DNA of 64,000 nt. Origin: Halomonas qaidamensis (lineage in GTDB: Bacteria > Pseudomonadota > Gammaproteobacteria > Pseudomonadales > Halomonadaceae). The translations under genes were made by a program, and so were the position numbers. The stretch covers positions 2,418,001 through 2,482,000 of the forward strand of contig NZ_CP080627.1 in assembly GCF_025917315.1 (NCBI RefSeq), given 5' to 3'. The notes beneath the pieces were generated by a model, which saw only the letters and a program-made list of their open reading frames with translations, did no database searches and was not told the origin of the DNA. Shown here piece by piece: positions 1 to 52,214 of the stretch; positions within the stretch are counted from its first letter, which is position 1; every line of letters starts with the position of its first letter.

Positions 1-2670
1 GGGTGTTTCCCCACCAAACAGCACGACTTCCACCCTGGGGGCCAACGTGGATAGATAAGCCGCCATTTGCTCTACATCTTGCAAGCCTTTTTTAGCCACA
101 TTGCTACTCAACATGCCCACGCGCACGCGGGCCTGCGGGTTAAAATCTACGTCCGGTAGTGTAAGCAACGGCAACATGGCAATCGTATTGGGCACAATAG
201 CTAGGCGCTTGCGGGAGCTAGGTAAGGTAAAAGCATCCGCCACACAGCGAGAGTTCGCTACTACAACATCTGCCAATTGATGCACTTGGGCCACTAGCTC
301 ACTAGGTGTGGCACCCAATAGAGCGCACAAACTTTCATCAAAAGCAGGCAGTTCACGCACATGCACAAGAGCAGGAACGCCCGCCCGCTTCGCAGCGATA
401 TAAGGCTCGTGTAGTACCGCAGTATTACCATGCAACGCACTGGCGTTGTAGCGAGCAATTAACGCTTCAAACTGCGCAACCGTAGTGTTATCGGCCTGTT
501 TACCCACCTGCCACCAACCATAAGGCAGTACCACCAACGCCTTACAGCGCTGTAACAACGCCTGTTCATAGGCAAGATTATTAGCTTCCGGTAACGTCAC
601 CACGACGTTCCAGCGCAGCTCGCCCATGGCATCCAGCACATCAACTAGACTACGTTCTGCACCAAACAGCGTACTACCTGCTTGATGGCCACAAAGTATG
701 ACCGTAGGCCGGTTTGCGAAGACCCGCTCACCCTGCCATTCAGGGTGAGGCAGATAGCCCTTGGCCTGCCCCACGCTGAGATAATGCGCAAGCGGGTTCA
801 TACTAGCTTCTGCTGCCTCAGGGTAACGACGCACATAGCCAGAAGTCGAAAATCCAGGACCAGGATCACGCCTCTCACTAGCGCCACTTTCCACATAGTG
901 GTTTAACGGCTCTACCGGCGTGTGCTGCAAATCGATATAGCGGGTCAAATACCAGCCCGCATCTAACAGGCCAGATTCACTAATTAGCTCAAACTCACTA
1001 GGCGGCGGGTTCGGGGGCGCAGTCGCTCTAAGCATATCTGCGGGAGCTGTAAACAGCCGCTCAGTGGGCGCGATGGGCATAAATAGCCGTTGGGACGAAC
1101 GATGCCAGCGGCCTGCCAACTGCATATACCGAAAACGGTTGCCGATGAACTGACTCACCAAATGGGAAGCTGAGTGCTGGCTTAACGAGCCGCTATCCGC
1201 CAAGCCAAACGAAAGCGGCACGCCGGGCAGTACCTCACTAACGCTGCCTGCACCGAAGGCAGCGTCTACCCGCCAGCGCCACTCGGTATCCGCATTGACC
1301 TTTACCCCATCCCAATAGCCCAAGGCTTCAAACACTTCGCGGCGAAACATCAACGACGACATATTGGGATACACCCAACCGTACTCATCCAACCGCCAGC
1401 GATGGAACATAAGCTCAGGGGTTACCCGCACCCAGTGAGACAAGCACGCTTTGATACTAGGCTGATCAATTAACCACTGGCATTGCACAGCAAGTTTTTG
1501 GGGGTGCGACCAGTCATCGCTATCATGGGTAGTAATAAACGGGGCAGTTGCCGCCGCCATCCCCGTATTACGGGCAGCGTAAGCCCCTTGGTTTTGGGTA
1601 TGACGCAGTAACATCAAGGTAATATGGGGTGGAACACTGTCCTGAAGCTGCTCGACTTGAGTAACACTGTTATCAGAACTTGCATCGTCCACCACGATAA
1701 TTTCCAAGCGCACGCCCTGCTGATAAAACAGACCGGTAAGCGCCATCGCAATAGTATCCTCCGCGTTATACAGCGGAATCACCACACTGATAAAAGGCAG
1801 TGAATGGTGAATGGTGAGTAGTGAGTGTTGAGTGGTGAGGGGTGAGTCGTGGGCTGCAGCTCCCGTAGCGCGTGGTAAGCTTTCGCCGAAGGCGGTCGGA
1901 AGATGCTGCCCCTGAGACACGGAATAGTCAGGCGCGAGATTATACAAATGCAGCGGCTGCTCAGGGTCAGCCAAGGTAACTGGCTGTAATCCCTGGGCCT
2001 GAAAATAGCGATTGATCACCGCCAACCGCTCAAGGTCTGTGCCTGAAGGTAAATGCTCTTTCGATAAACTGAGCGCATTCGCCTTAGCCAACGCGGTATC
2101 AGCATGGTCTGGATAGTGCGCCGCTAAAAACGCCAGGGCCTGTGCTAATGCACTATCTTGCTGGGCGTTATCTTCAAATAGCTGACAACAAGCGTCTACC
2201 ACCAGCAACGCTGGGCCAGGGCAATCAAAGCCTGGAAGTGTGTTCTCTGGCAGCAGAACCTTTAACACCGCTGGCCAGTGAGCTTGCCAAGCATACCACC
2301 GGGCAAGCTCCCAGCGAGCGGTTAAACGTTCAGCCAGCGTCGCGTTGGGGGCGGTTAACAAGCGCTGAAGCCGTGGCAAAACCACGTCGTCAGCACCACG
2401 CCACAACGCATGCCCCCAGCCAATAGCCTGGTTGCGGCATGGTAAGCGACCTTCTGCTTTTCCATGCTGCTGATAATGACCCCAGGGGTCGACACCAGCA
2501 GCGGCCACATCAGGGTAGGCCGCTAAATACCACGCGGGGTCAAAACCGTCGTTATTAACACCTTCGTTATCAACGATGGTCGTCGACGATTCACTAGCAC
2601 GTGACTTACGCCAGTGCTTAGTAAACAAGGACTTGGCCGACAATAGCTTATTGGCTAAAAACGAACGCAT
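1..2670 (-). CDS. Large two-domain glycosyltransferase (GT2 + GT4), partial at left edge
   Basis: The reading frame is open from the ATG at 2670 to the window edge (890 codons), so the C-terminus is missing. Near residues 42-72 is a module of the form FDPAWYL..YPDV..G..P..HY..HG..EGRLP. A GT2 domain follows at about 285-555 (VVIPLYN, VVDDAS, DSDDWSHPQK). Two more YPDV-type modules lie at about 565-643, and a GT-B (GT4-like) domain starts near 655 (VILCGHQAGSTLFGAERS, HVRELPAFDE, VPNTIA). It probably adds two sugars to a surface glycan at the cytoplasmic face. The GT2 part is paralogous to the protein at 7997-10084, sharing GAYAARN, FITTHDSDDWSHPQK and FMFRREV-type stretches. The stretch from about 1798 to 1855 is repeat-like DNA read in frame just before the GT2 domain. 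It lies downstream of ugd with a 28-bp gap. GT assignment is confident; sugar specificity is unknown. Confidence 0.85.
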   Translation of the reverse strand, partial: MRSFLANKLLSAKSLFTKHWRKSRASESSTTIVDNEGVNNDGFDPAWYLAAYPDVAAAGVDPWGHYQQHGKAEGRLPCRNQAIGWGHALWRGADDVVLPRLQRLLTAPNATLAERLTARWELARWYAWQAHWPAVLKVLLPENTLPGFDCPGPALLVVDACCQLFEDNAQQDSALAQALAFLAAHYPDHADTALAKANALSLSKEHLPSGTDLERLAVINRYFQAQGLQPVTLADPEQPLHLYNLAPDYSVSQGQHLPTAFGESLPRATGAAAHDSPLTTQHSLLTIHHSLPFISVVIPLYNAEDTIAMALTGLFYQQGVRLEIIVVDDASSDNSVTQVEQLQDSVPPHITLMLLRHTQNQGAYAARNTGMAAATAPFITTHDSDDWSHPQKLAVQCQWLIDQPSIKACLSHWVRVTPELMFHRWRLDEYGWVYPNMSSLMFRREVFEALGYWDGVKVNADTEWRWRVDAAFGAGSVSEVLPGVPLSFGLADSGSLSQHSASHLVSQFIGNRFRYMQLAGRWHRSSQRLFMPIAPTERLFTAPADMLRATAPPNPPPSEFELISESGLLDAGWYLTRYIDLQHTPVEPLNHYVESGASERRDPGPGFSTSGYVRRYPEAAEASMNPLAHYLSVGQAKGYLPHPEWQGERVFANRPTVILCGHQAGSTLFGAERSLVDVLDAMGELRWNVVVTLPEANNLAYEQALLQRCKALVVLPYGWWQVGKQADNTTVAQFEALIARYNASALHGNTAVLHEPYIAAKRAGVPALVHVRELPAFDESLCALLGATPSELVAQVHQLADVVVANSRCVADAFTLPSSRKRLAIVPNTIAMLPLLTLPDVDFNPQARVRVGMLSSNVAKKGLQDVEQMAAYLSTLAPRVEVVLFGGETP
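1798..1855. repeat. GTGAATGGTGA-type repeat DNA inside a coding frame
   Basis: The plus strand shows a run of loosely periodic GTGAATGGTGA / GTGAGTAGTGA / GTGAGTGTTGA units. The same style of DNA occurs between genes at 29113-29136. Here it is read in frame on the minus strand as a Thr/His/Ser/Leu-rich linker directly before the GT2 domain. Confidence 0.6.
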
Positions 2671-7996: not shown

Positions 7997-10084
7997 CTAG
8001 ATATCCAACCAGTTTTCAAGCCCAACAAAATCGGGATATCCATCTAACGGATAATCAATCAAAGCAAGATCAACAATATTGAATTTTTCCGCTTTAACCA
8101 CTTGACCCATAACAACTGGCTCTACTTTGCCTTGCTGTAAAAGCTCAAAGTACAAGTTACACAACGCTTCTGGGGCTTTATGAAAGCTCGGCCAGTGGAA
8201 CAGTGCCACTTTTTGCTTCGGGTGTTTTTCGATATAACTTGCTGCACTCTGGCAATCTTCTAAACGTGAAAAATCGCCCGCTATAACAGCGTCGAATTTC
8301 AATGGCTCCTCACTACGCTCAAACATACTACGAGGTGCTGGGAAAGCACGTTTAACATTTGCATCTTTTACGTATAAGTTTTTTTGTGATGCATGCCACC
8401 AAGTACATATTTCCCTGTAAATATGTCGAAGACCATAATAAACGGTACGTACATGAGTCGCTTTAGTACGCGTCAAAGAAGACTCTTCATCTAATGCAAA
8501 TGCCAAAGGTACATCATCATATATCTTGGCTAAAGAACTTTCACCGTAACGAGACTGCATACGCCAAATATATTCTGTGTCGCCACCTATACGCACATGA
8601 TCCCAGCCACCTAGCGTTTCGAGTACTTCTCTCCGAAACATAAAAGAAGATTGACTCCAGTGAATCAACTTTTTAACTGGCCGCCAATTCTGAGTAAATG
8701 CTAAGTTAGCTTGTGCACGAATCCAGTGCGCAGCGCACCCCATAACCTTCGGATGTTGCTCTAAGTGTTTCACTTGCGTAGCAATTTTCTGTGGGTGCGA
8801 CCAGTCATCGCTATCATGTGTCGTAATAAAATCGCCAGTAACAAAGCTTAGACCATAGTTTCGCGCTGCATAAGCACCACCATTTTGAGGGGGCTGTACT
8901 GCTTTCACACGGGAATCTTCTTTTTCAAGTGCTTTCAGAACTTTAAATGTATCGTCTGGTGAACAATCATCTACTGCAATAATTTCTATATTCTCATAGG
9001 TTTGCGCCAATAACGACTCAATCGCAATACGCACCTGCTCTCCAGCATTAAAAATGGGCATAACGATCGAGACTTTATTTTTACCTTTCACCTTTGCAGC
9101 AGGCAAGCCAACTATATTCCCAATAGAAAGTGCTTTATTTTTATCCTTAAGACGAATTCCACAAAAGCCATGTATTGCAAATGCTTTATTTATTGCATCA
9201 ATGCGATCGGCGTCTTCTTCTATAGCATTAGCAATAGCAAAATGTGCGTCCGCATCATTTGGGTGTGAAGCAACATACTTACTTAAAGTACCAAAGGCCT
9301 CTTGTTTTCGACCCAGTGCAAGTAAACAAAAAGCCTTTAAGTAGACAGTCTCTTTTCTGATACTACTTACTGTGGCTACATTCTCCATTTGAATAGCGTA
9401 ATCTAACGCTTTTTCAATATCTCCACAGAAAAAGACCCAACGGGCTGTTTGCCACAATGCTGCCCAACGCAGCGAACCACTATTATTTTCATCTTCATAC
9501 ATTTTTTTAAAGACATCTAGAGCGGTTTGAGAGTGGCCACTCCAGAGCTGGATAGCTAGGTCAGCAGTTTCATTTTTTTCTTTACTCTTAATCTCATTCC
9601 CTTGTACTTTGCCTTTATACAGGTAATGCAACAATGGAATCTCATTAGGGCGCATTTGCGCTTGATGACTTTCCAGATAAAAGTCGTTATCGAAGCGTTT
9701 GCAGGGGTCTAGGCCTAGCCGCCAACCTACCGCTAAGTAATGCAATACAGGGTCTACTTTCTTGGGTAGCCAAATAGCATGTTCAACAACGTACCATTTC
9801 CCGTTTACTAAACGGGATTTTTTTACCAGGGAGAGATCTTCTTCTAACTTGCCTGGTCTGAGAATAGAAAGCGCATTTTTTAGCAACTGATCGCAGGCAG
9901 TTTTATTATCTATCTTGCGTAGCGCAAGGGCTAAATTCACATAACAGGGCTTAAATTCACATTGACGTTGGAGCGCCTTAACATAATAGGAAGCCGCCTG
10001 CTCGTAAGCTCCCTGTCGATACAGTTCGTTTCCTTTCTGAAAGTCCATAGCGTAATTAAGGCTCTCTGTGTGCGTTATGTTCAT
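7997..10084 (-). CDS. TPR-GT2 glycosyltransferase
   Basis: The 695-residue protein begins with TPR-like helices (about 14-75, GNELYRQGAYEQAASYYVKAL). Two degenerate YPDV-type modules follow (about 110-165: DPVLHYLAVGWRLGLDP and FDNDFYLES..IPLLHYLYKG). A second helical repeat region spans about 175-300. A GT2 domain lies at about 320-545 (SIVMPIFNAGEQ, VDDCSPDD, THDSDDWSHPQK) and ends with a helical tail. It should transfer a sugar from a nucleotide donor at the inner membrane. It resembles the N-terminal half of the GT at 1-2670. It opens the AT-rich block and has a candidate promoter just upstream, so it may start its own transcript. Confidence 0.85.
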   Translation of the reverse strand: MNITHTESLNYAMDFQKGNELYRQGAYEQAASYYVKALQRQCEFKPCYVNLALALRKIDNKTACDQLLKNALSILRPGKLEEDLSLVKKSRLVNGKWYVVEHAIWLPKKVDPVLHYLAVGWRLGLDPCKRFDNDFYLESHQAQMRPNEIPLLHYLYKGKVQGNEIKSKEKNETADLAIQLWSGHSQTALDVFKKMYEDENNSGSLRWAALWQTARWVFFCGDIEKALDYAIQMENVATVSSIRKETVYLKAFCLLALGRKQEAFGTLSKYVASHPNDADAHFAIANAIEEDADRIDAINKAFAIHGFCGIRLKDKNKALSIGNIVGLPAAKVKGKNKVSIVMPIFNAGEQVRIAIESLLAQTYENIEIIAVDDCSPDDTFKVLKALEKEDSRVKAVQPPQNGGAYAARNYGLSFVTGDFITTHDSDDWSHPQKIATQVKHLEQHPKVMGCAAHWIRAQANLAFTQNWRPVKKLIHWSQSSFMFRREVLETLGGWDHVRIGGDTEYIWRMQSRYGESSLAKIYDDVPLAFALDEESSLTRTKATHVRTVYYGLRHIYREICTWWHASQKNLYVKDANVKRAFPAPRSMFERSEEPLKFDAVIAGDFSRLEDCQSAASYIEKHPKQKVALFHWPSFHKAPEALCNLYFELLQQGKVEPVVMGQVVKAEKFNIVDLALIDYPLDGYPDFVGLENWLDI

Positions 10085-18556: not shown

Positions 18557-18617
18557 AGCGGCCTCTTGTTCGTCATGTTGAAAGGAAACGCTCAATAACA
18601 GCGAACGTGTGAGCGCC

Positions 18618-20222: not shown

Positions 20223-20251
20223 TTCAACCCCGAAGAATAAAAAATTAAACC

Positions 20252-21559
20252 TCACCTTTCCCTAACACAATCAAGCGAGTAAAAAAGGCCCATAAAAACT
20301 TTCATTACTTCTTCTTTTCGTGGACTGTAAGTTTCCAAATATGGATTCCCAATCTCACCTTCTTTAGAGTCAGCCATACCCTCTATTTTCACAACGTCAT
20401 GATGAGTGTGCCCTTGATAGTTCATGACAGGGCTATGGTGGACAACACCTTTTTTCTTACTAATCCTAGATAGGTACATAGAAGATGTAGCCATATCGCT
20501 AAGAAATAGATCAACTTTTCCAGATATAAGTATCTTCTCCTTCGGCCTCATTCCAACCATACTGATAAATTCAGACTCTTTTAGGCCAGACCTTTCAACA
20601 ACGTAACCCACCTTTTCCTTATAAGACTTTAAAATATCTGAAGTCGCAAAACCTGAGTCGGTGGCAGTGAATCCGTCAAATACAAAAAAACAACTTAGTG
20701 AGGAGCTCTGAATCTCATAAATCAAATCAAGAATCACATCTTCTTGCTCTTCCCAAGCTCTTCTTTCACCCATTAGGCAGAAAGCTACCACCACATCGAA
20801 CGATTCTAAATTATTGACTATTCTTTTATAAACATGATTATCAGCCAAACAACTAGAGTCCGCTAACAACCTGTCATCAACGAAGTCTAAGCATTGGCCT
20901 ACGCGAGACATCGCAGTACTTAATACAAAAAAACTTTCATTTAACAAAACTTCATTAAGCTTCTGATAACTATCAAAAACCAGATAATCCGAGCTGCTTT
21001 TATAGAGTGAGCAGGGGTTGTAAAAGTCGCCATCACGTACAGAAACAAAAGCGACATTGCCAATCAGCGACTTAGACTTAGAATATAAAAACTCTAAACC
21101 AGGAAGAGTGTTGTAAAAATAATGGTACGGCCTTCTCGAGTAGCATAAAAACCCTAACAGAGATCCTTTCCGTGTAGCTTCAAGTGGCAATAAATTAGAA
21201 TCCACCACCTCTTTTAAAACAGAAACCAAGGACCTATCATTAGAAGATGTATAAAGAGCATTTCTTTCAGGAAAATAAATTGCCTGGGCCCACTTCACTT
21301 TTTGAATAATAAAAAAAACGCTCCCCCCATCTTCGCACGCAATAAAATTGTAATCATACTTCAGCACACTAGCAAATATTTCAGCACGATCGTTTTTGAA
21401 TCCATCAACATAGAAGCCGTTACCTTTCACCCCTTCATTAATCAAAGAAGCCACAACCTTAGGATTGTTAAATTTATTTAAAAAATAAGCTACTTTTTCC
21501 TCGGCATCCGACTTACTATCAACCATCAAAAGATTTACAAAATCAAAAGATAAATCCAT
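20252..21559 (-). CDS. Unrecognised AT-rich protein, GT-B-like C-terminus possible
   Basis: The 435-residue soluble protein has no motif that I can name. Its C-terminal half alternates predicted beta strands and helices (SCFFVFDGFTATDSG, KILISGKVDLFLSDMATSSMYLSR, KKKGVVHHSPVMN). This looks like the nucleotide-binding half of a GT-B enzyme or a surveillance domain that checks pathway state. Only 30 bp separate it from the aldolase start. Base composition is much more AT-rich than the aldolase trio downstream, so it probably has a different origin. A glycosyltransferase role is a guess from context. Confidence 0.4.
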   Translation of the reverse strand: MDLSFDFVNLLMVDSKSDAEEKVAYFLNKFNNPKVVASLINEGVKGNGFYVDGFKNDRAEIFASVLKYDYNFIACEDGGSVFFIIQKVKWAQAIYFPERNALYTSSNDRSLVSVLKEVVDSNLLPLEATRKGSLLGFLCYSRRPYHYFYNTLPGLEFLYSKSKSLIGNVAFVSVRDGDFYNPCSLYKSSSDYLVFDSYQKLNEVLLNESFFVLSTAMSRVGQCLDFVDDRLLADSSCLADNHVYKRIVNNLESFDVVVAFCLMGERRAWEEQEDVILDLIYEIQSSSLSCFFVFDGFTATDSGFATSDILKSYKEKVGYVVERSGLKESEFISMVGMRPKEKILISGKVDLFLSDMATSSMYLSRISKKKGVVHHSPVMNYQGHTHHDVVKIEGMADSKEGEIGNPYLETYSPRKEEVMKVFMGLFYSLDCVRER

Positions 21560-32097: not shown

Positions 32098-33117
32098 TTA
32101 CTTGTCTTGTGTACACCGGGTGATATGCTGCCCCAGCGCATTAACGGTCTTTTTAAGGTACGCTTGATGTTCTTCAAATTTATTATCTAATGCTTGATGT
32201 AAAGCAGTCACTGAAGCTGCTATCGCCTGCTGCTTTTCAAGCGTTGCTTGCAACGCTTCTACTTCAGCTTGTTGCTCTGTTAGCTGCTGCTGTAGCTTCT
32301 TATTTTGTTGTTGCAATTGTTCATACTTAACCTGTTGTTGACGCAGCTGTTCTTCGCTATCTTTCAAACGTTTTTGATAGTCAGCCTGTTGCTGTTCATG
32401 CTTTTTAGCTTGCTCTATCTGCTCTTTTTCTTGCTGGGCTTGCTGTTTTTCTGATTCTTGCTGGGCTGTTTTTAGCTGTTTTGCTAACTTGGCACTTCGC
32501 TTCGCTTCTTCCTTCCAGCGGTAGTAGTAAGCGTGGCGGGTAAGCTGTAACAGGGGTAGGTCTGGGTCTTCTTCATTGCGAGCCTGTAGCTCAAACCCGT
32601 GCTGTTCGCACCAGCTGAGGATTTCTGCCACTTCTGGCGTATCTTGATAAAGCGGCACGCTACCTACCCGTAGCCAGAGCTGATTCATTTGCTGATCATG
32701 CTGGCTACCGGCTAAGGCTTGTAACGTTGGCCATACAAGCTCTGGCTGCTCCACTACCAGCATATCGACTGCTTGGCTTCCAATCTCTTCTAGTAACCCT
32801 GCAACACTTTTTAGTGCTTGCGTGTCACTTTCAATAAGCTCAAGCCCAGGGTAAAGCGTATAAAGACCCGAGGCTGGCTGACTTGCATTAAATTCCGGTA
32901 AATTAAACTCGTAATAAGGTAGCTCGCCGCTCGCTTCCGCTAACTTGGCTATTTGCTGTGCTGCGCTGGGAATAGCCGCTTGCACTTCTTGCCACTGCGT
33001 TTCTTGTTGGGTAGGCGTGACAAACAGAGCCTTTTCTGTAGAGATACTTTCTAATAACGCTAGCGTTTCTGGCCTAAGGGGGCCGATGTACAGAATATTT
33101 GCGTGGGTGCTGGGCAT
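32098..33117 (-). CDS. Degenerate FkbM-like domain plus C-terminal coiled coil
   Basis: In the 339-residue protein, residues 1-205 have alternating strands and helices. The stretch DMLVVEQPELVWPTLQAL followed by LWLRVGSVPLYQDTPEVAEILSWCEQHGFEL resembles the second half of FkbM-family methyltransferases (normally LLKIDVQGAE...GFEL). The usual acidic Asp-Val-Gln-Gly core is replaced and no SAM glycine loop is evident, so it is probably inactive. Residues about 206-318 form a Gln/Glu/Lys-rich coiled coil. No signal peptide or membrane span is present. The layout recalls WbdD of E. coli O9a, where a methyltransferase and a coiled coil set chain length. That analogy is inference. Gap to the upstream coiled-coil gene is 69 bp. 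Confidence 0.6.
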   Translation of the reverse strand: MPSTHANILYIGPLRPETLALLESISTEKALFVTPTQQETQWQEVQAAIPSAAQQIAKLAEASGELPYYEFNLPEFNASQPASGLYTLYPGLELIESDTQALKSVAGLLEEIGSQAVDMLVVEQPELVWPTLQALAGSQHDQQMNQLWLRVGSVPLYQDTPEVAEILSWCEQHGFELQARNEEDPDLPLLQLTRHAYYYRWKEEAKRSAKLAKQLKTAQQESEKQQAQQEKEQIEQAKKHEQQQADYQKRLKDSEEQLRQQQVKYEQLQQQNKKLQQQLTEQQAEVEALQATLEKQQAIAASVTALHQALDNKFEEHQAYLKKTVNALGQHITRCTQDK

Positions 33118-33186
33118 GTGTCGGTCACTTCTCGTTGCTTGAGCCTAAAGTCGCGCTGGTGTCACTAACGTTATGGGGCTTATGCA

Positions 33187-35799
33187 TTATTTTTCAGCAG
33201 GGGCCGGAAGCTGCTGCTGTGGCCTGGCAGGCAACCGTTCTTCAAACTGGCCATGGCGCACATAGTGAAGTAACGGATTTTGCCCTGATTCTGCAACATC
33301 GGGGTATTCACTTAGGTAGAAATAGGTGTCGAACTTATCGCTTGGGTTACGTCCTTCGATGGCACCAAACTTGAGGTAGTGCTCAGCGGGGGCTATCCCT
33401 GAGGTTTTTACATCAGGGTACTGTTCGCAGTACCACTGGGCATCAAAGAAGGGGCTTTCATTAATGGCCGCAATTTGTTGCGGTAACGCACGCTTAAACG
33501 GACGGCTATAGCGGTAGGCTGCGGCAGCGTTACGGTGCCCGCTTACCCGCAACCACTGAACCACGCTTTCATATTGGTGGCGCTCTAGCTGATGCTGCTG
33601 TTTGAGTATATTAATAGTTTTTTGGCGGGTTTCCGCTTGTTTCTTGTAATGCTCGCTGTTCTTACTGGTTTTAACCAGTTGCTCTTGTGTTTCATGTAGC
33701 TGACCTACAATCAGCGATTTTTCTGTGTTTTCCTGGTCCAACATACGCTGTTGCTGTACCGCTATTTTTTCTGCTTTCGTTAGCTGCTTTTTAAGATTTT
33801 CAGTGGCTTTTAAAGTGTTTTCTTTTTCTTTAGTTTGTTGGCTAAGTGCTTCTTGGGTGCTGTGCAGCTGTTCCGTTAGCAGCGCTTTTTCTGACGCTAT
33901 TTCGTTTAGCTGCTTACGAAGCTGGCCTGCTTGCTTTTCGGTTCGTTCCGCTAATTCTTGGGTGGCCTGCTGGTTTGCGGCTTTTTCGCTAGCTTCTTGG
34001 GCAAGTGCTTCTTGGGTGCTGTGTAGCTGTTCCGTTAGCAGCGCTTTTTCTGACGCTAGATCGTTTAGCTGCTTACGCAGCTGGCTTGCTTGCTTTTCAA
34101 CTGAGGCTATTTGTTCCGCTAATTCTTGGTTAGCCAGCTGGCTTGCGGCTTTTTCGCTAGCTTCTTGGGCAAATGCTTCTTGGGAAGCAGTTAGCTGTTG
34201 CTTGAGCTGATCTTTTTCTTGACCGAGTTGCGTGCGCTCTTTACGTGCGGTTTCCAGCCTTTTTTGTAGCTCTTTTTGCTGCTTTTCAGTCTGTCTTTTG
34301 AACTCTACCTGCTGTTTAGCCACTTGCTCCGCTTTTTCGATTAGTTGCTTCTCTTTTTGCTTGGCTGTTTCAGCGGCATTGCGAAGCGCCACTTGGTGCT
34401 GTTCGGCAGTGGCTGCTGCGGCTGTTTCTAGCTGGGTGATGCTTTTTTTAAGTTTTTGAGCTTGCTGCTCTTTTTCTTTTGCGTCTTTTTGCAGTTGGCC
34501 GATGGATTGCTGTTGTTCATCCAGCTGCTCTTCTTGTTTTTTGGTTTTTTTCCTGAGCCAGTTTAGCTTAACTGTTTTTTCATTAAGCTCTTCTTCTTGG
34601 CTCTGGTTTTTGAGTAGACTTTCTTCAAGCGTTTCTTGCACTTTCATTAGCTGCTCTAACAGCGCGGCATTTTCTGTTTCAACGCTGTGTGCATGATCTT
34701 GAAGGCGGGCTTGCTCTTGTTCTAGCTTTGCGTGCTTTTGTTGATGTTCAAGCGTCCGCTCTTCAAGTGCCTGCTGCACCTTGGTTAACTGCTCTAACAG
34801 CGCGGCATTTTCTTTTTCAATGCTGTGGGCATGCTTTTGTAGGCTAGCCTGCTCTTGCCTCAGCTTGGTTACGCTTGCCTGCTCCTTTTCCAAGGCGGTT
34901 TGTGCTGCCTCTCTGCCTTGCTGGCTCTCTTTTAGCGCTTTTTCAAGTTTTTCGTTGGTTTTTTCTGTTTCTAGAAGCTGGGCATTTTTTTCCGAAAGGC
35001 GTTGGCTAACTTCTTCTACCTGCTGCTGCTTCGCTTTGCTTTTGGCCTTTTCACTACTGTGTTCTTGGTTAAGCTCTGCTAGTTGTTGCGTTAATTGGCT
35101 ACTGTGTTCTTGTACGTTTGATAGCTCGGTTTTTACAGCTTGTAGCTCTTTTACCTGCGCTTGCTGCTGTTGATGCTCATTACTCAAGTAGTGCAGGCTT
35201 TGTTCTACCGCTTGCACTACTGGCATTTGCCAAGAGGGGGCACTTGCACTACTAGCTTTCAGGTAGTTATGAGCTTGCTGAAGCAGGCTATTTTCTTGGA
35301 CAAGCTGTGTCGCCATTAAGCGATATAGCGGCGCAATATACTCAAGCGTAAGGCTAGCTGCTTCTGGAAGCGCTTCGCTAATAGGCGCTCCTGGCACATA
35401 ACCATGTAGCGATACTTGGCGACGTTTTGTTTTATATAGCTTGAGAATGAGATCTGCTTGGTGGCTCCATTGCCATAGAGCTTCTTTTGGGCGGCTGGCG
35501 TTTTGCAAGTTTGCAGCCAGCCACGCTGCTGGATGCGGCCACGCAATAACGCATTCACGCGTAGTATCTATTTTCAGCCAGTGTTCTAGCGCTGATACGG
35601 CGCTTTCATCAAAAGCTTCAACCAGCAACGTTTGGCTTTCAGCTTCGCTGGGGTGCCCAGTTGCGATATCGCTTAGTGTTAGTTCAGTCGCATTCTGCTC
35701 GCGCACGTCGGCATTTGATTCGACCTTGAATTTATCGGTTCCTACGTACACGACTAAGGACATGGTGTGGGCAGCTCCATTCACTTCTTTTGTGTTCAT
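33187..35799 (-). CDS. Very long coiled-coil protein with C-terminal YPDV modules
   Basis: The 870-residue protein has no signal peptide or TM. Residues about 1-210 are globular and unassigned (MSLVVYVGTDKFKV, CVIAWPHPAAWLAANLQNASRPKEALWQW). Residues about 215-740 are an almost unbroken Gln/Glu/Lys/Ala coiled coil with internal near-repeats (EKALLTEQLHSTQEALAQEASEKAA occurs in two related copies). Residues about 785-865 hold two modules of the type FDAQWYCEQYPDV..G..P..HYLKFGAIEGRNP. The same module is found in the GT at 1-2670 and, degenerate, in the GT at 7997-10084. I infer a scaffold or molecular ruler that docks glycosyltransferases of this locus. It follows rmlC by only 5 bp. Confidence 0.65.
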   Translation of the reverse strand: MNTKEVNGAAHTMSLVVYVGTDKFKVESNADVREQNATELTLSDIATGHPSEAESQTLLVEAFDESAVSALEHWLKIDTTRECVIAWPHPAAWLAANLQNASRPKEALWQWSHQADLILKLYKTKRRQVSLHGYVPGAPISEALPEAASLTLEYIAPLYRLMATQLVQENSLLQQAHNYLKASSASAPSWQMPVVQAVEQSLHYLSNEHQQQQAQVKELQAVKTELSNVQEHSSQLTQQLAELNQEHSSEKAKSKAKQQQVEEVSQRLSEKNAQLLETEKTNEKLEKALKESQQGREAAQTALEKEQASVTKLRQEQASLQKHAHSIEKENAALLEQLTKVQQALEERTLEHQQKHAKLEQEQARLQDHAHSVETENAALLEQLMKVQETLEESLLKNQSQEEELNEKTVKLNWLRKKTKKQEEQLDEQQQSIGQLQKDAKEKEQQAQKLKKSITQLETAAAATAEQHQVALRNAAETAKQKEKQLIEKAEQVAKQQVEFKRQTEKQQKELQKRLETARKERTQLGQEKDQLKQQLTASQEAFAQEASEKAASQLANQELAEQIASVEKQASQLRKQLNDLASEKALLTEQLHSTQEALAQEASEKAANQQATQELAERTEKQAGQLRKQLNEIASEKALLTEQLHSTQEALSQQTKEKENTLKATENLKKQLTKAEKIAVQQQRMLDQENTEKSLIVGQLHETQEQLVKTSKNSEHYKKQAETRQKTINILKQQHQLERHQYESVVQWLRVSGHRNAAAAYRYSRPFKRALPQQIAAINESPFFDAQWYCEQYPDVKTSGIAPAEHYLKFGAIEGRNPSDKFDTYFYLSEYPDVAESGQNPLLHYVRHGQFEERLPARPQQQLPAPAEK

Positions 35800-35804: not shown

Positions 35805-36353
35805 TTAATTAAAACGAGGGGCGTTTAGCAAACTTGCGCCGTGCTGATCTTTGGCTGACAGCACAGGCGGTTGGCTGTTTACCAAGGGCCATTGAATATT
35901 AAGTATGGGGTCGTCCCAACGCAGCGACACTTCATCCCCTGGGGCGTAGTAGTCGGTGCATTTGTACTGAAACTCAGCTTCTTCACTGGTGACATAAAAA
36001 CCGTGGGCAAAGCCAGGTGGCAACCATAGCATTTGCTTATTCTGTTCATTCAGGGTTGCACCCACCCATTGGCCGAAGGTCGTCGAGTTTTGGCGCATAT
36101 CCACCGCTACATCGAACACTTCCCCTTGGGTGACACGCACTAATTTACCCTGTGGTTGCTGGTGCTGGTAATGCAGGCCGCGCAGGATTCCGTGAGCAGA
36201 TTTGCTATGGTTGTCCTGCACAAAGGTGTGGTGACCACAGTGGGCTTCGAATTCGCTTTGGCGAAACGTTTCCATGAAGAAACCACGCTCATCGCCGAAG
36301 ACCTGGGGAGTAATTAACACCACATCGGGAATGGCGAGTTTTTCGTATTGCAT
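35805..36353 (-). CDS. rmlC: dTDP-4-dehydrorhamnose 3,5-epimerase
   Basis: This is the third step of dTDP-L-rhamnose synthesis, a double epimerisation at C3 and C5. The 182-residue cupin has DERGFFMETF, FVQDNHSKSAHGILRGLHYQ with the catalytic His (about residue 62), KLVRVTQGEVFDVAVDMR with the paired Asp, and LWLPPGFAHGFYV. The length is normal. The gene stands after rmlA with a 196-bp gap filled by repeat DNA, and the coiled-coil gene begins 5 bp after its stop. Confidence 0.96.
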   Translation of the reverse strand: MQYEKLAIPDVVLITPQVFGDERGFFMETFRQSEFEAHCGHHTFVQDNHSKSAHGILRGLHYQHQQPQGKLVRVTQGEVFDVAVDMRQNSTTFGQWVGATLNEQNKQMLWLPPGFAHGFYVTSEEAEFQYKCTDYYAPGDEVSLRWDDPILNIQWPLVNSQPPVLSAKDQHGASLLNAPRFN

Positions 36354-38724: not shown

Positions 38725-39090
38725 TCAAACAACGATTCTTTTGATGAAGGCTCTTGGATAGGTGAAATTAACCAATAAACCAACTTGCATACCTGTTGCT
38801 CGAAGGTAGTTGATGAGCTGAGCTTCAGCTGATACAGGCATCTGCGATTGTGCCTTCAACTCCATAATCACTTTATCTTCAACTAATATGTCCAGACGAT
38901 GCTCGCCTACTAGTTGATTTTTATAGTAAATATTGACAGGTTTCTCTGTTTCAACTTTTAAACCGGCAGACAGCAGCTCGATGGCTAATGAACGCTGGTA
39001 AATACTTTCAAGAAAGCCTGGGCCGAGGTGACTGTTAACCTCGAAGATAGCACGTCTAATCTGATAGGTGAGTGCCTCATCCTTGAGCAT
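38725..39090 (-). CDS. GxxExxY-family protein
   Basis: The 121-residue protein carries the family signature GPGFLESIYQ (Gly, Glu, Tyr spacing) near residue 23, then LDILVEDKVIMELKA with the acid-lysine arrangement (D...E.K) of PD-(D/E)XK-like nucleases, and LINYLRATGMQVGLLVNF. Members are small proteins of unknown role, often scattered in intergenic positions of bacterial genomes. It splits rmlB from rmlD and is flanked on each side by a family-1 repeat, so it is probably an insertion rather than a sugar-pathway member. Confidence 0.8.
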   Translation of the reverse strand: MLKDEALTYQIRRAIFEVNSHLGPGFLESIYQRSLAIELLSAGLKVETEKPVNIYYKNQLVGEHRLDILVEDKVIMELKAQSQMPVSAEAQLINYLRATGMQVGLLVNFTYPRAFIKRIVV

Positions 39091-40387: not shown

Positions 40388-41269
40388 CTAGCGTTCGCTT
40401 TGTCGTAGCTCTAAATTTGCACGCGCTTCTTTAGCTCTGTTGCCAGCTTCTTTTACTGCTTTTTTCGCTTCAGCAATGGCTTCTTTATCGTCTTGTTCTT
40501 TGGCATCAGCTAGGGCTTCTTGAGCGGCTTTTAAGTCAGCGTGGCAAACTTGTAGGTATTTTCGCGCCCCTACTACATCGCTCGGCAGTTCGGAGTGACG
40601 TTTCTTTTCATCGACATCTGAGTGGTAAGCGGTGATGGCATCATTGATGTCGTCGTACCAGAAGGCGCTACCTTTTTTAAGATAAACCCCTGCCTGACAG
40701 AGGTCCTTCAAAATGCCTTCTGAGTGAGAAACCATTATCAAAGACGCTTGACCAGTTTTTGAGGCAAAGAGTTCTTTTGCCTTGGCTTTAAACGCACGAT
40801 CGCCAACGGCAGTGGCTTCATCAGAAATATAGACATCGAAGTCAAATGCGAGAGAAAGGCCAAACGAAATACGCGACTTCATGCCTGACGAGTAGGTACG
40901 AATAGGCTCATCAAAGGCTGGGCCTATTTCTGCAAATTCTTCTACGAACTTGATTACCCGTTTGACTTCATCTGGGCCGCTACCTTGCACACGGGCAACG
41001 AATTTTACGTTTTGGCGCCCTGTCATGTTGCCTTGCATCCCGCCGGAAAGCCCTACTGGCCATGAAACGCGGCTATGGCGAATGACTTCTCCACGTTCTG
41101 GGGTATCCATTCCGGCAATAAGGCGCAAAAGCGTAGATTTACCTGCTCCGTTTGCACCAATTAAGCCAACACTGACGCCCAGAGGAATAGTGAAATTGAC
41201 GTCTTTAAGTACCCAATTACTACCATGGTGGTTGTGGTAGCGCTTGTAGAGGTTTTTTATTTCGATCAT
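40388..41269 (-). CDS. kpsT: Polysaccharide ABC transporter ATP-binding protein with C-terminal helical extension
   Basis: It drives export of a completed polysaccharide across the inner membrane with KpsM. The ABC domain is at 1-220: Walker A GANGAGKST near 38, GLSGGMQGNMTGRQNV, signature YSSGMKSR, the Walker B region DFDVYISDEATAVGD and the switch His in MVSHS. KpsT proteins are usually about 220 residues. This one is 293 because of a charged helix (about 225-293, rich in Ala, Lys, Glu). The extension lacks the beta-sandwich of O-antigen Wzt carbohydrate-binding domains. It may be a docking helix. It is separated from kpsE by a nuclease gene and a toxin-antitoxin-like pair. Confidence 0.93.
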   Translation of the reverse strand: MIEIKNLYKRYHNHHGSNWVLKDVNFTIPLGVSVGLIGANGAGKSTLLRLIAGMDTPERGEVIRHSRVSWPVGLSGGMQGNMTGRQNVKFVARVQGSGPDEVKRVIKFVEEFAEIGPAFDEPIRTYSSGMKSRISFGLSLAFDFDVYISDEATAVGDRAFKAKAKELFASKTGQASLIMVSHSEGILKDLCQAGVYLKKGSAFWYDDINDAITAYHSDVDEKKRHSELPSDVVGARKYLQVCHADLKAAQEALADAKEQDDKEAIAEAKKAVKEAGNRAKEARANLELRQSER

Positions 41270-41493: not shown

Positions 41494-42903
41494 TCAATTG
41501 ATAACCGTCAGCGGCTTGCTTTTACGTGCGTAGACGGCTTCTAGCTCATCTTTTAGCGCATTTTTTGCAGTTTGATCGCCGTGTACCAAGCGAATGGTGT
41601 GGGGCCAGCGACGCATGCGTTTTACGAAATTGAGCAGGTCTTTTTGATCGGCGTGGGCTGAGTAACCGCTGATGGTGGTAACCCCTGCTTTGATGTCGAT
41701 ACGTTGGCCGTCTATTTCTACCCAGCCACCCTGTGGGCCATATTGTTGAATGGCTCGCCCTGGGGTGCCAGCACCTTGGTAGCCAACAAACAGTACTTGG
41801 TGGTGTTCATCGCTTAGCATGGCTTTTAGGTAGTTCATAATGCGCCCGCCTGCGCACATGCCGCTCGCGGCAATCACGACCGCTGGGCGGCCCGTTTTTG
41901 CTAGGTATTGCACCGTTTGTTCGTGGGCTTCGTGGCTTTCTACCGTATAGAGATTTTCAAAATTGAGCGGATGTCGACCACTGCGCAGTCGGCGATGGGC
42001 TTCTTTGTCCCAGTAGGGTTTTAACTGGCGGTAAATACGGGTAAAGCGGGCGGCCAAGGGGGAATCGACGATAATTTCTAGCTGTTGCCACTGGCTGTTT
42101 TTGCTGCGCTTGGCTTCATAAATAATGCCTTCCAGCTCGTAGAGAAGCTCTTGAGTTCGGCCGATGCTGAAAGCGGGCACCATCACTGTACCGCCGTTGA
42201 TGAGCGCTTGTTCTATGGCGTTTTTGAGCGTGGCCCGGCGTTTGCGGCGGCCTGCATGCTGCCGGTCGCCGTAGGTGCTTTCTAGTACTAGCTGGTCGCA
42301 GCTGTAAGGCGATGTTGGTGCAGGTAGCAAAGGTGCGTAAGGTGCACCTAGATCGCCACTGAAGACAACGCGCTCTTTGCTGCCATTAGCGTGCTGGTGG
42401 GCCACTTCAACATAGCTTGAGCCGAGTATGTGCCCTGCCCGCTTCAGCTTGATGCGCGTGGTGATGCCTTGATCGGCTCCTTTACGCTCATCTAACACGG
42501 TGTGCCACTTGCCGTAAGACACGCTGACAATTTGTGATTCCAGTTGAGCTTGGAAGCGCTGGATTAGCTGGGCATTGCGGGTGAAGCCAATTTTTAAGGC
42601 GTCTTCAATCACCAGCGGTAGCAGTATGGCCGAAGGGATGGAACAGAGGATGGGGCCTTTGAACCCTGCGGCCAATAGGTAAGGCAGCCGCCCAACGTGG
42701 TCGATATGTACGTGGGTAATGATCAGCGCTTTAATGGTGCTTATATCAAATTCAATTTGCAGCTGTTGGAAGCTGTCTTCTCGCGCGTCTTCGCCTTGAA
42801 ACAGGCCGCAATCTACCAGCAGCGAGTGGTGTGTATTAAGGATAAGCTGGTGGCAGCTGCCGGTGACACCCGTAGCACCACCATGGTGGATGATATCTAA
42901 CAT
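41494..42903 (-). CDS. Beta-CASP metallo-beta-lactamase ribonuclease-like protein
   Basis: The 469-residue protein has GGATGVTGSCHQL at the N-terminus and the zinc motif THVHIDHVGRLPYL near residue 60. ESTYGDRQH follows, then the beta-CASP features SPLAARFT, AASGMCAGGRIMNYL and YSAHADQKDL, and a final HGDQTAKNAL. This is the CPSF73/Ysh1-type RNA exonuclease family that occurs widely in bacteria. It has no obvious role in capsule synthesis. It sits between kpsE and kpsT, flanked by family-2 repeats, so I read it as inserted cargo. Its activity on capsule or other mRNA is untested. Confidence 0.9.
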   Translation of the reverse strand: MLDIIHHGGATGVTGSCHQLILNTHHSLLVDCGLFQGEDAREDSFQQLQIEFDISTIKALIITHVHIDHVGRLPYLLAAGFKGPILCSIPSAILLPLVIEDALKIGFTRNAQLIQRFQAQLESQIVSVSYGKWHTVLDERKGADQGITTRIKLKRAGHILGSSYVEVAHQHANGSKERVVFSGDLGAPYAPLLPAPTSPYSCDQLVLESTYGDRQHAGRRKRRATLKNAIEQALINGGTVMVPAFSIGRTQELLYELEGIIYEAKRSKNSQWQQLEIIVDSPLAARFTRIYRQLKPYWDKEAHRRLRSGRHPLNFENLYTVESHEAHEQTVQYLAKTGRPAVVIAASGMCAGGRIMNYLKAMLSDEHHQVLFVGYQGAGTPGRAIQQYGPQGGWVEIDGQRIDIKAGVTTISGYSAHADQKDLLNFVKRMRRWPHTIRLVHGDQTAKNALKDELEAVYARKSKPLTVIN

Positions 42904-43963: not shown

Positions 43964-45061
43964 TTAATCCCGGTGGTCTTTCACGATCATGATGATCATG
44001 CTGAGAATGAAGGCTAGGAAGATGGTGATGATGGCGAAAACGCTGCTGTTATAAAGCCGGTTAGGCTCTGTTGGGTACTCTGGGAATAGCGGGCTTTGCA
44101 ACACGCTAACCTGTTTGAGTTGGCGAGCGGCTTCTAAGCGGGTGTTTTCTAGTGCAGCTAACGCGCTGGAGTAGGTTTCCTGGGCGAACTGGGCCTGCAA
44201 TTCCAAGGTTTCATACTCAGCAGAGATGCGGTTAAGCGAATTGCCCGCCGCTTGCGCTAGGCGGTCGCGCTGTTCAACAATTTGGTCGCGCAGCGCTTCG
44301 ATGCTGCGCTCTACTTGGCGGAGTTCTGAAGATTGCGAGCTCTGGAAACTTGCTAATGCGTTACGCTGGGCCTGCAGACGGGCTAGGTCACCTTCAAGCG
44401 TAGCGACTACTTGATTGATGCTTTCCACCGTTGATGTTGGCGATACTAAGCCATATTCGTTTTGGAAATCGAGTAGTTCAGAACGCGTATCGCGAAAGCG
44501 CTCTTCCAGGCGCACCATTTGCTGCTCTAAAAAACGGACCTGCTCTTCTGCTAGTCGATGGCCCATTGCATTCATATGGTCTTCACCCGCTTCTAGAAGC
44601 AGTGATGCCATATCGTGGGCAAACTCCGGCGTATAACCTTGAACATGGATATTAAGTACGCCTGCATATTCGTCTAGTTCGACGTTTACCCGGCGTAGGT
44701 AGTATTTGTGCAGGTCTTCAATAGGGACATTAGGATCACGCAACTTGGCAAAGATATCACCATGCTCATTGTAATGCTGACGAATGCCTAACTGCTCATC
44801 TAGTACCCGCAACATATCGACAGATAACAGATGCTCTCGTAGTAGCAATAAATCTGCGGTATTGCCCGCACCACTGCCTAATAGCGAAGCAAAGCTTAAA
44901 TCTGGCGTGGCCACTTGAGGGCTTTCTAATACCACCGTAGCCCGGGATACATAGCGCTCTTCCGCCCATACAAACCAATAAAAACTAACAAGTGCGATTG
45001 CAATAAAGGCGACTGCCCACTGCGGTGATTTTTTAATAAACCGAGCTATTGAACCTTGCAT
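43964..45061 (-). CDS. kpsE: Capsule export inner-membrane/periplasmic PCP protein
   Basis: The 365-residue KpsE/CtrB-family co-polymerase has a TM at about 14-32 (WAVAFIAIALVSFYWFVW), a long periplasmic coiled-coil region (about 160-320, FLEQQMVRLEERFRDTRSELLDFQNEYGL) and a second TM near 338-360 (VFAIITIFLAFILSMIIMIV) with a short KDHRD tail. It links the ABC transporter to the outer-membrane KpsD channel. It starts 3 bp after the kpsM stop. The next transporter gene, kpsT, is displaced 2.7 kb downstream by inserted genes. Confidence 0.92.
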   Translation of the reverse strand: MQGSIARFIKKSPQWAVAFIAIALVSFYWFVWAEERYVSRATVVLESPQVATPDLSFASLLGSGAGNTADLLLLREHLLSVDMLRVLDEQLGIRQHYNEHGDIFAKLRDPNVPIEDLHKYYLRRVNVELDEYAGVLNIHVQGYTPEFAHDMASLLLEAGEDHMNAMGHRLAEEQVRFLEQQMVRLEERFRDTRSELLDFQNEYGLVSPTSTVESINQVVATLEGDLARLQAQRNALASFQSSQSSELRQVERSIEALRDQIVEQRDRLAQAAGNSLNRISAEYETLELQAQFAQETYSSALAALENTRLEAARQLKQVSVLQSPLFPEYPTEPNRLYNSSVFAIITIFLAFILSMIIMIVKDHRD

Positions 45062-45064: not shown

Positions 45065-45874
45065 TTATTTTGCCTTTAACCGATTAACAAAGCGCAGGTG
45101 CATTAATAGCCCTAGCGTTATTAAGGTGAAAGTGAACAGCCACAGATAAAGCATACTAGTGCCGTTAACTACTTTGTAATTTTCAAAAAAACCTAAGCGA
45201 AGTGTTTCCAACCCGTGAGGAATTGGGTTGAGCATTAGATATTCAAGCAACCAGTGAGGCAAACTATTTAGCGGCATTATTACCCCAGATAGAATCATCA
45301 GCGGTAAGGAAAGCATACTAACAACCTTACCTACTTCAGGTACCATAGTAGCCGCTACAGAAGTTACTAGGCCTAACCCTAATCCGAGACACCACAGTGA
45401 TGCCCATGCTGCTAGTGCGCGCACTGCATTGTCTGGGTACATATCTAACCCCAGCATTAAGCCACCGGCAATAAAAATAAGAAAGACAAAGCTGCGTAGC
45501 GCACCTTCCAAAAAAATACGTACTAACACAGGGTCAACAGGCTGTACTTGACGGTAAGCAAATAAAGCTCTGTTAGCATCAATAGCACCCATCCCACGCA
45601 TCATCCCTTCACGTACAAGCATAAAGCCCATCAGGCCCATAATAAGCCAAGGTATAAAGTCAGCATTAGCAACAAGTCGATCGCCACGAATGAAACCTCT
45701 AATCGCAATCATGATACCTACGAAGGCGACAGGTTCGAAGACCATCCAGAACCAGCCCATTCGGTCTCCCATTGTTCGCGAGAGCGCTTCCCTTACGAAC
45801 ATGGCATACCAAACACTGCGGGTAACTTGCCAAGGCGTGCGGGCACCTTTCGGTGCACCTTTTACATTTGCCAT
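45065..45874 (-). CDS. kpsM: Polysaccharide ABC transporter permease
   Basis: The 269-residue ABC-2 type integral membrane protein has six predicted spans (such as PWLIMGLMGFMLVREGMM, FVFLIFIAGGLMLGLD, ALAAWASLWCLGLGLGL, MLSLPLMILSGVIMPLNSLP, YLWLFTFTLITLGLLMHL). With KpsT it moves the finished chain out of the cytoplasm. I choose ATG 45874 (MANVKGAPKG) because the upstream GTG at 45925 lies inside a repeat element and would add 17 unlikely residues. Gap to kpsD is then 144 bp, filled by that repeat. Confidence 0.93.
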   Translation of the reverse strand: MANVKGAPKGARTPWQVTRSVWYAMFVREALSRTMGDRMGWFWMVFEPVAFVGIMIAIRGFIRGDRLVANADFIPWLIMGLMGFMLVREGMMRGMGAIDANRALFAYRQVQPVDPVLVRIFLEGALRSFVFLIFIAGGLMLGLDMYPDNAVRALAAWASLWCLGLGLGLVTSVAATMVPEVGKVVSMLSLPLMILSGVIMPLNSLPHWLLEYLMLNPIPHGLETLRLGFFENYKVVNGTSMLYLWLFTFTLITLGLLMHLRFVNRLKAK

Positions 45875-45920
45875 AGCTCTACTTTTTAATGTGGAATAAT
45901 TTAAGTGGCGGTTAATACTT

Positions 45921-46010
45921 GCCACGGATACTCACGGAGGACACGGACAAGATCAACAGCACACAAAAACTTCTTGGTTTTTGTCCGTGGCAACATGCGA
46001 CTTCCGTGGC
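45921..46010. repeat. Family-1 inverted-repeat element between kpsM and kpsD
   Basis: GCCACGGATACTCACGGAGG at the left and TTTTTGTCCGTGGC at the right, with a second TTCCGTGGC end at 46010. It is more divergent than the rml copies. Confidence 0.75.
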
Positions 46011-46018: not shown

Positions 46019-47746
46019 TTACAGATCGACTGCGACACGGGTGGCGACGGCGATTTGGAACAGTATTTGTGTCAGCGTGGAAGCTAGCTGCAGGTTGTGG
46101 GTAGGAGCAGCGGGCATGACAAGAATTTCATCACCCGGGCGTAGGTTAACGTTGCGGGCGTTTTCTACCGCGCCGTTCTGGCGAACAATGAGAATATGAT
46201 CTTCATCGGCGCGGTTAGTGAAGCCACCGGCACTTTCAATGTAGTCGATCACGTTCATGCCCGGGCGAAACACTGCGGCTTGCGGCACCAGCACTTCACC
46301 GCTAATCAGCATGGAATCACTGATTTCAGGAATAGTGATAATGTCGCCATCCTGTAACCGAATATCAGAGATTCTATCGTTGTAGGCGACTACTAAACGG
46401 CCACTAGGTTCTAGCTCGCGGGCGCGTTCAACGAAGTCTTGAATAAGTTCGGCTTCTTGGGCACGAATTTTCGCTTCTTCGTTGGTGCTAGATTCAGCGC
46501 TTAGATACGTGGTTTCTAAACGGCGTAAGCTATCTTCCATAGATTGCTTTTGCTGTTGCCTGACGCTTTCACGCTGTAGTGAAATGCTTTCCACCGCGGT
46601 CATGTTTTCTGGCACGGGGATGGCGTCTAGCAGTTCACTTAGGCGTGCATCGCGAGGTAAGGCAAACCTAGAGGGGCCGTAATAGCTGCCTTCCACTTCG
46701 ACCACGATGGTTTCACTGCGCTTGTCAGCGCTGAACAGTACTTCATCGCCACTGCGGATGGTTTGTCCGTAGAACATATCTAGGGGGAAGTATTGGGCAA
46801 ACGGGCCATCATCACGGTTACCGCGTAACAGCACATGAGAAACACCGCTTCTTAGGCGTGCCAGGTTTACTAGCTCAGCACCGCTTAGCTGGTTACCCAG
46901 CAGCTCGTAGCGATGTTCACGATGAACATCGCCGCCTACGGCAATGGCTGGGCCGCGCTCTTCTACAACAATGGTGTCGCCATCTTGGAACTGCGGGCGG
47001 GCAATAGAGCCATTAATAAGGAAGTCATACAGATCGACTGTAGCTACGGTACGGTCGTTACGCATCACGCGAATTTGCCGGTAGCTACCTAGGTCTTGGT
47101 CGATGCCGCCTGCTTGATCCAAAAAGTACAGCACCGAATCATTCGGGGTGCCCGCAAAGCGGCCTGGATTTTCTACATAGCCAGTCACAAACACGGCTAC
47201 AGGCTGCACGCCTTGCACGTTGGTATAAACTTGAACATTTTCTGGATAAACCGAGGTAATGGCACCGCGCACGCTGCTTTCTACCTGCTGGCTATTTTGG
47301 CCTTCTACATTTAATGGGCCTGAGCCGGGAATAAAGATATTACCTTGAGCATCTACCGGTAGCACCCGTTCAAATTCAAGCGCGCCCCAAACTCGCACGG
47401 TAATTTGGTCGCCGGGCTTAACTTGGTAACCGGCATTTAGGCCATCTCCCATTGCACCGCGAAACCCACCGGTAAACAGGTTGGCACCGAACGGCGGAAG
47501 AACATCAGGGTTTTGCGGTTGCGCTGACACAGGGCCATACGTTCCGCTACGCCAATCAGCCCGGGGGGTGTCGTTTACTTGTTCTACCTGCTGCTGGCTA
47601 GCTTGGTCTTCCGGCAGAATGGTGTTGGGCAGGCTGATACTTTGCGCCCAACTCGTACTGCTTATTAGGCTACTGACAAGCAACAGTGACACAGTGGCTA
47701 AAGGGCGTTTCAACGAAAGCCGCTTGATAAGACGAGTAGCATTCAT
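46019..47746 (-). CDS. kpsD: Capsule polysaccharide outer-membrane export protein
   Basis: The 575-residue protein of KpsD length has a signal peptide ending near residue 34 (SLISSTSWA). The Poly_export domain begins about residue 107 (YQVKPGDQITVRVWGALEFERVLPVDAQGNIFIPGSGPLNVEG), and SLBB domains follow (VFVTGYVENPGRFAGTPNDSVLYFLDQAGGID, VEGSYYGPSRFALPRDARLSELL, LISGEVLVPQAAVFRPGMNVIDYIESAGGFT). It forms the outer-membrane end of the export channel. It overlaps the upstream lipoprotein gene by one base (TAATG). It is the second gene after the ops leader. Confidence 0.92.
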   Translation of the reverse strand: MNATRLIKRLSLKRPLATVSLLLVSSLISSTSWAQSISLPNTILPEDQASQQQVEQVNDTPRADWRSGTYGPVSAQPQNPDVLPPFGANLFTGGFRGAMGDGLNAGYQVKPGDQITVRVWGALEFERVLPVDAQGNIFIPGSGPLNVEGQNSQQVESSVRGAITSVYPENVQVYTNVQGVQPVAVFVTGYVENPGRFAGTPNDSVLYFLDQAGGIDQDLGSYRQIRVMRNDRTVATVDLYDFLINGSIARPQFQDGDTIVVEERGPAIAVGGDVHREHRYELLGNQLSGAELVNLARLRSGVSHVLLRGNRDDGPFAQYFPLDMFYGQTIRSGDEVLFSADKRSETIVVEVEGSYYGPSRFALPRDARLSELLDAIPVPENMTAVESISLQRESVRQQQKQSMEDSLRRLETTYLSAESSTNEEAKIRAQEAELIQDFVERARELEPSGRLVVAYNDRISDIRLQDGDIITIPEISDSMLISGEVLVPQAAVFRPGMNVIDYIESAGGFTNRADEDHILIVRQNGAVENARNVNLRPGDEILVMPAAPTHNLQLASTLTQILFQIAVATRVAVDL

Positions 47747-49720: not shown

Positions 49721-49745
49721 TATTTGGTTCCAACAGCTCACAACG

Positions 49746-50750: not shown

Positions 50751-50762
50751 ATATTGTCTTAA

Positions 50763-52151: not shown

Positions 52152-52214
52152 ACTTCTAACTCCACTATAAAACCGTCATATTTAATTATAAGCCAATCTA
52201 AAAAAACTACTCAG

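Follow-up and report, generated by a model that had tools for sequence, protein, structure and literature searches.

A coiled-coil gene pair in a polysaccharide cluster of Halomonas qaidamensis

We analysed a 64,000-nucleotide stretch of Halomonas qaidamensis DNA (contig NZ_CP080627.1, positions 2,418,001 to 2,482,000; hereafter the window), focusing on two adjacent genes, here called A and B, which encode coiled-coil proteins of 870 and 339 amino acids. B directly follows A, as the original prediction from the DNA sequence had stated, and the two open reading frames (ORFs) lie 69 bases apart, both on the minus strand. The pair recurs in other genomes, mostly in the company of ATP-binding cassette (ABC) glycan exporters, and closely related A proteins differ in length almost exclusively within their coils. 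These features are compatible with a scaffold, and possibly a ruler, for glycan assembly.

Protein A has an N-terminal domain, an extended coil and two YPDV modules at its C-terminal end (Table 1). Its total length and the two modules had been predicted correctly, whereas the coil, put at about 525 residues, measured about 560, with a single proline. The hydrophobic periodicity of this coil peaks at 3.5 residues (z score 6.7, reached by none of 200 shuffles) and a second periodicity test gave z 8.1 at the same period (0 of 100 shuffles). The period was likewise reached by none of 100 shuffles in 14 of 17 A coils, the exceptions being those of G258 (z 0.6), G204 (z 1.8) and G113 (z 2.2). NCBIfam matches to protein A are SMC-like coil matches only.

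The N-terminal domain of A may be a decayed sulfotransferase. A GHPSSGY stretch is found in three distant A heads. The loop that binds 3'-phosphoadenosine 5'-phosphosulfate (PAPS) is PxSGT-like, and none was seen in the window A protein. Pfam returned no family match for the window head and no sulfotransferase among nine distant A proteins, and a Foldseek search with the head gave no match at E 0.001. Profiles of this head or of distant A heads had no significant match among PDB sequences; the same was true for profiles of the B head and of the extra C-terminal domain described below, and for the YPDV end of A, searched as a single sequence.

Protein B joins a head to a second predicted coil. 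The head had been described as degenerate and FkbM-like, which is borne out by its relatives and by a fold model, although FkbM family models do not match the window protein itself. The structure model of the head resembles class I methyltransferases, and B relatives match the FkbM model TIGR01444, with the relative in G600 exceeding the cut-off (39.6 vs 37.7 bits). The HIGAGxG-type motif, which binds S-adenosylmethionine (SAM), is lost in the window head but kept in three distant alignment rows; B relatives of genus g8 also retain the SAM motif (the second copy in G061, G072 and G106). Judged from these matches and the model, the B head appears to be FkbM-derived, with its cofactor motif lost. 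The anatomy of A and B thus agrees with the predicted split of a ruler-type coil and a dead methyltransferase over two proteins. The predicted second coil is helical and its 3.5-residue period is significant when alanine is left out (z 4.1), but not when alanine is counted (z -0.6, reached by 141 of 200 shuffles). In eight B relatives an LGQHITR-type motif precedes an extra domain of about 230-244 amino acids, which window B lacks.

Some related architectures were seen elsewhere. Two clusters that also contain A and B encode an additional coiled-coil protein, which has a methyltransferase-like head and two YPDV modules (L068:5978-8056 and L070:5152-7269); the head of the former has a Methyltransf_24 match (E 0.0097). 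At L080:15007-15735 an FkbM-like head is joined straight to YPDV-module sequence, with no coil.

Table 1. Positions in the window of the A/B pair, its parts and associated genes.
Feature	Coordinates	Strand	Basis or remark
A gene, 870 amino acids: N-terminal domain, coil, two YPDV modules	33187..35799	-	ORF calls, YPDV profile
A N-terminal domain, residues 1-190, alpha/beta fold	35230..35799	-	
A coil, residues ~190-748	33556..35232	-	
YPDV module 1 of A, residues 785-824	33328..33447	-	E 1.5e-24
YPDV module 2 of A, residues 823-862	33214..33333	-	E 6.4e-22
B gene, 339 amino acids: putatively FkbM-derived head, coil	32098..33117	-	ORF calls, head model
B head, residues 1-198, class I methyltransferase-like fold, no cofactor motif	32524..33117	-	
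B coil, predicted helix, residues about 198-336	32110..32523	-	
LGQHITR motif of B	32116..32136	-	
rmlC, ends 5 bases upstream of A	35805..36353	-	
KpsT/Wzt-like ABC ATPase	40388..41269	-	
KpsE/BexC/CtrB family inner-membrane protein	43964..45061	-	TIGR01010 E 1.1e-81, under the model's curated cut-off
KpsM-type ABC-2 permease	45065..45925	-	
KpsD-type polysaccharide export protein	46019..47746	-	
Two YPDV modules in glycosyltransferase gene 1-2670	739..963	-	third at 2428-2544
Weak YPDV-like module in glycosyltransferase gene 7997-10084	9599..9694	-	E 1e-4

The pair is conserved and accompanies two kinds of ABC exporter

We searched 275 genomes of the family and 390 of the order. In a whole-protein search with A, coil words dominated the matches (of 7999 scored candidates, 23 were kept), and searches limited to the N-terminal domain, as well as profiles, performed better. 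In the family, single-sequence searches identified the A N-terminal domain in 17 genomes and the B head in 24, including all 17, while profiles extended A to 31 genomes. In the order, the profile search identified A in seven genomes, four of them outside the family. Named protein-database matches are from Halomonas or Vreelandella, and no paper in the open-licence PMC literature was recognised as being on the pair.

A B-type gene adjoins A in 33 of the 35 A-bearing genomes (29 of 31 in the family and all four outside it). No B was found beside A in G169 or in G243; the G243 genome is 66% complete and its A lies on a short contig. Among the 33, B was recognised by its later parts only in G200 and G225, its match in G060, G221 and G236 is weak or to other weak members, and a transposase interrupts it in G007. 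Of 23 pairs measured, 12 have ORFs that share 1 or 4 bases, with starts called by script. The SMC-like matches of A would fit unrelated coiled-coil proteins, cytoskeletal or at the cell surface, that are in the locus by chance. The partner is, however, conserved across three families in a mostly similar neighbourhood, and because of this conservation we regard a chance location as very improbable.

The 31 A-bearing family genomes include 25 with a strong KpsM relative, and the remaining 244 include 82 (Fisher p 7e-7, kinship not corrected for). Strong here means E < 1e-40, which applies to 107 of the 275 genomes by hand count and excludes 20 weaker matches. Of the 17 genomes from the single-sequence search, 12 have the permease 5-11 kb from A, and in the remaining five the contigs end inside the cluster. 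No KpsM or KpsE relatives were found in the four genomes outside the family; all four have a Wzm-type permease, located upstream of A at 0.7 kb (G614) and 2.6 kb (G330), with the ATPase between, or downstream at about 22 kb (G362) and 35 kb (G600). The module therefore accompanies two kinds of ABC exporter. This supports the predicted link to ABC glycan export; a search for the pair next to kps or wzm-wzt loci in other genomes had been proposed as a check, and such cases were found in the family and beyond it.

As controls, we took ten pair-less kps loci from the same genus (40 kb each, picked for long contigs rather than at random). None has a long-coil gene in place of the pair. Control proteins initially flagged as coil-bearing turned out to contain only short scattered stretches, with a longest unbroken coil of 69 residues (KpsE/KpsT tails aside), and the unbroken stretches in 17 A proteins span 79 to 1162 residues.

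Length variation in close A pairs is almost confined to the coil

We compared close A pairs, defined by an N-terminal domain identity of at least 85%, which yielded 48 pairs, 42 of them distinct (three match a protein with its own copy from a second source, and three repeat a pair through such a copy). Some proteins belong to several pairs, and the pairs are not independent; P0021, P0023 and G209 were dropped from the count, with the marker not found or too far in. Across the 48 pairs there are no gaps in the N-terminal domain and one gap, of 1 residue, in the C-terminal ends, while coil lengths diverge by as much as 258 residues. Coil length differs in 41 of the 42 distinct pairs. The window protein (G000) and its same-species counterpart in G229 are 98.9% identical in the N-terminal domain and 99.2% in the C-terminal end, and their alignment contains exactly one gap, of 109 residues (539-647), absent in G229.

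In 24 genomes, between 158 and 1248 residues separate the end of the N-terminal domain from the first YPDV module, the domain ends being rough in the most distant members. A coiled coil rises 0.15 nm per residue, which translates this span to about 23 to 185 nm. The ORFs of KpsE in these loci are steady at 360-396 amino acids. Tandem units of 18, 21, 25, 28, 39, 46, 48, 63, 77, 88 and 98 residues were seen within coils, for example 88 residues in A of G009, 28 in B of G262 and 18 in P0004. No claim was rested on the units being whole heptads.

YPDV modules and the surrounding cluster

The YPDV model was built from these very proteins, and the E values of the A modules come from it. The original prediction held that two glycosyltransferases of the window carry the same modules. 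This is clear for the gene at 1-2670, which has three (E 7e-16 to 4e-10), but the gene at 7997-10084 has a weak match only. Apart from those in A, YPDV modules are present in 11 of 12 loci with the pair and in seven of the ten pair-less kps loci; the module thus belongs to these glycan clusters in general. Sharing it is therefore not enough to link A with specific glycosyltransferases, and is weak evidence for the tie that had been predicted on this basis.

The gene order in the window is rmlC, A, B, then wecB and wecC, with the KpsD, KpsM, KpsE and KpsT/Wzt-like genes all upstream of the pair. The same genome contains, about 39 kb away from the left end of the window, two Capsule_synth genes of the KpsC and KpsS types (ORFs of 712 amino acids with two matches and 436 with one). 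Because of these genes, and by family resemblance, the window exporter probably serves a capsule of the type with a 3-deoxy-D-manno-octulosonic acid (Kdo) linker. The KpsT-like ATPase is longer than what we take to be usual for KpsT, and several of its relatives score as partly coil-like. Between kpsE and kpsT lies a gene for an RNase-like metallo-hydrolase of the beta-CASP/RMMBL type (41494-42903), as in most same-genus kps loci examined (76-97% identity). The gene for a PDDEXK_3 (GxxExxY) protein sits between rmlB and rmlD (38725-39090), and such a protein is also found in several related loci. Elsewhere in the window there is a distinct Wzx/Wzy/Wzz-type cluster (48446-59759) and a consecutive run of a HAD phosphatase, a cytidylyltransferase and an HMGL-like protein (17121-20255), perhaps an unusual pathway for a sugar acid activated with cytidine monophosphate.

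A putative scaffold with a ruler-like role

We propose that A and B are side-by-side encoded subunits of a cytoplasmic coiled-coil scaffold on which a polysaccharide for ABC export, in this case a kps-type capsule, is assembled, and that this scaffold has a ruler-like role. We give this reading about an even chance, on account of the pairing, the exporter company, the coil-only length variation, the control loci and the precedent of WbdD, WbbB, O4 and O7. At the rise per residue given above, A would be a rod about 83 nm long. Its YPDV end would dock on the glycosyltransferase/export complex at the membrane, and its far end, the dead transferase domain, would keep B, or some other enzyme, at a distance from the polymerase. 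The length of the rod would then determine the length at which a growing chain first reaches the component at the tip, making the pair a ruler with no live capping enzyme of its own. The core idea of the original prediction survives with partial support, its mechanism as a proposal. A stronger version, which we consider doubtful, is that a two-protein ruler with dead transferase heads sets the chain length of a Kdo-linker (kps-type) ABC capsule, that close strains retune polymer length via coil repeats, and that the same module is used with kps-type and Wzm/Wzt-type exporters. We know of no ruler protein for Kdo-linker capsules and, to our knowledge, how chain length is set in kps-type capsules is not settled.

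Several observations weigh against a ruler-like role. A is absent from 82 of the 107 KpsM genomes, and kps export therefore does not need the pair. G202 encodes a coil-less YPDV protein of 160 amino acids between rmlC and wecB, a natural coil-less version of the A/B slot. YPDV modules are not specific to pair loci and are lacking in ten of the 31 family A proteins. Occurrence of the genes away from ABC loci, which the original prediction had named as the outcome that would speak against it, is limited to the six of 31 A genomes with no close KpsM (G236, G243, G007, G047, G079 and G136), in five of which A lacks YPDV. A Wzm probe of these six gave only a weak match on a different contig in G236, no KpsT/Wzt relative was found in the stretches around A, and no ABC polysaccharide exporter part was found among 20 proteins neighbouring A in G136, G047, G007, G079 and G236. 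The lengths of the A and B coils, which we had considered might match, are uncorrelated (Spearman 0.15, p 0.54, n=19, with rough ends). This set omits G106 and genomes with no recognised B head end; the automatic head end is too early in G262, G009 and G600, and the G600 figure includes the C-terminal domain.

Neutral repeat slippage can also produce changes in coil length. The coils might simply cluster the glycosyltransferases and sugar-nucleotide enzymes belonging to a single capsule type, with a length that has no readout and drifts by slippage. The tandem units would make slippage easy, and the uncorrelated coil lengths, the window heads with no live enzyme motif seen and the optional presence of the pair among kps loci all fit such a scaffold. 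On the other hand, the coils keep their 3.5-residue period and the end domains are nearly gap-free; length alone is therefore free to vary, and a ruler would show the same. We consider a scaffold of this kind possible but on the unlikely side.

A further point against the ruler-like role is that no intact capping enzyme was seen at the tip, B having lost its SAM motif and the A head having no Pfam match. Capping could occur in trans if an enzyme of the cluster, such as a separate methyltransferase, docked on the dead heads and capped the chain, making the pair a true terminator-ruler. The SAM motif kept in the g8 B relatives, the G600 relative above the FkbM cut-off and the Methyltransf_24 domain in the window gene at 13855-17124 are in line with this. 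We consider it improbable; the capsule of Haemophilus influenzae type b, also ABC-dependent, is described in PMC11231755 as lacking a chain-terminating residue.

For the proposed scaffold with a ruler-like role, rod length is the most variable part of a conserved module and provides a directly testable handle on chain length. G000 and G229 are a natural pair for this purpose, 109 coil residues apart with little else different in A. If the ruler-like role is correct, the range of coil rulers would widen beyond O-antigens to include capsules, and such a system would be seen to outlast the decay of its capping enzymes.

Comparison with known systems

Coil rulers in ABC glycan assembly have already been published; according to passages of PMC11231755 and PMC5082667, a live terminator sits at the coil end far from the polymerase. 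The layout of A and B is similar, but their heads look dead. In WbdD of E. coli O9a and Klebsiella O3, as described in parts of the same papers, the coil lies between an N-terminal transferase head and a polymerase-recruiting C-terminal end, to which A can be likened. The YPDV region is the candidate for such an end in A, being shared clearly with one glycosyltransferase and weakly with another, and common in pair-less loci. As with WbdD-type rulers, an extended coiled coil is present (clear in A; B fails one of two periodicity tests), the genes are encoded with an ABC glycan exporter in the window and in all but six of the A-bearing genomes, and there is a methyltransferase head, here in B. 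WbdD, however, is a single protein whose kinase and methyltransferase are both live and sit some 20 nm off the membrane, whereas A and B are two proteins with kps-type export, heads with no live motifs, no kinase found and a coil that would extend for ~83 nm.

In Klebsiella O7 ORF6 and O12 WbbB a single chain combines a coil with glycosyltransferase modules, and the O7 protein also has a methyltransferase head (passages of PMC11231755). The B relative of G106 (L082:15823-20000) resembles this all-in-one layout, with an FkbM head, a coil and a GT4 glycosyltransferase in a single chain whose frame reaches the end of the stretch; window B differs in having no glycosyltransferase and a head that lacks the cofactor motif. 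The B head shares the class I methyltransferase fold, as modelled, with FkbM methyltransferases (TIGR01444 / PF05050), which its relatives match, but it has lost the cofactor motif and does not reach the family model. What is new here, relative to the published rulers, is the split pair, the dead heads, the length range and the capsule context.

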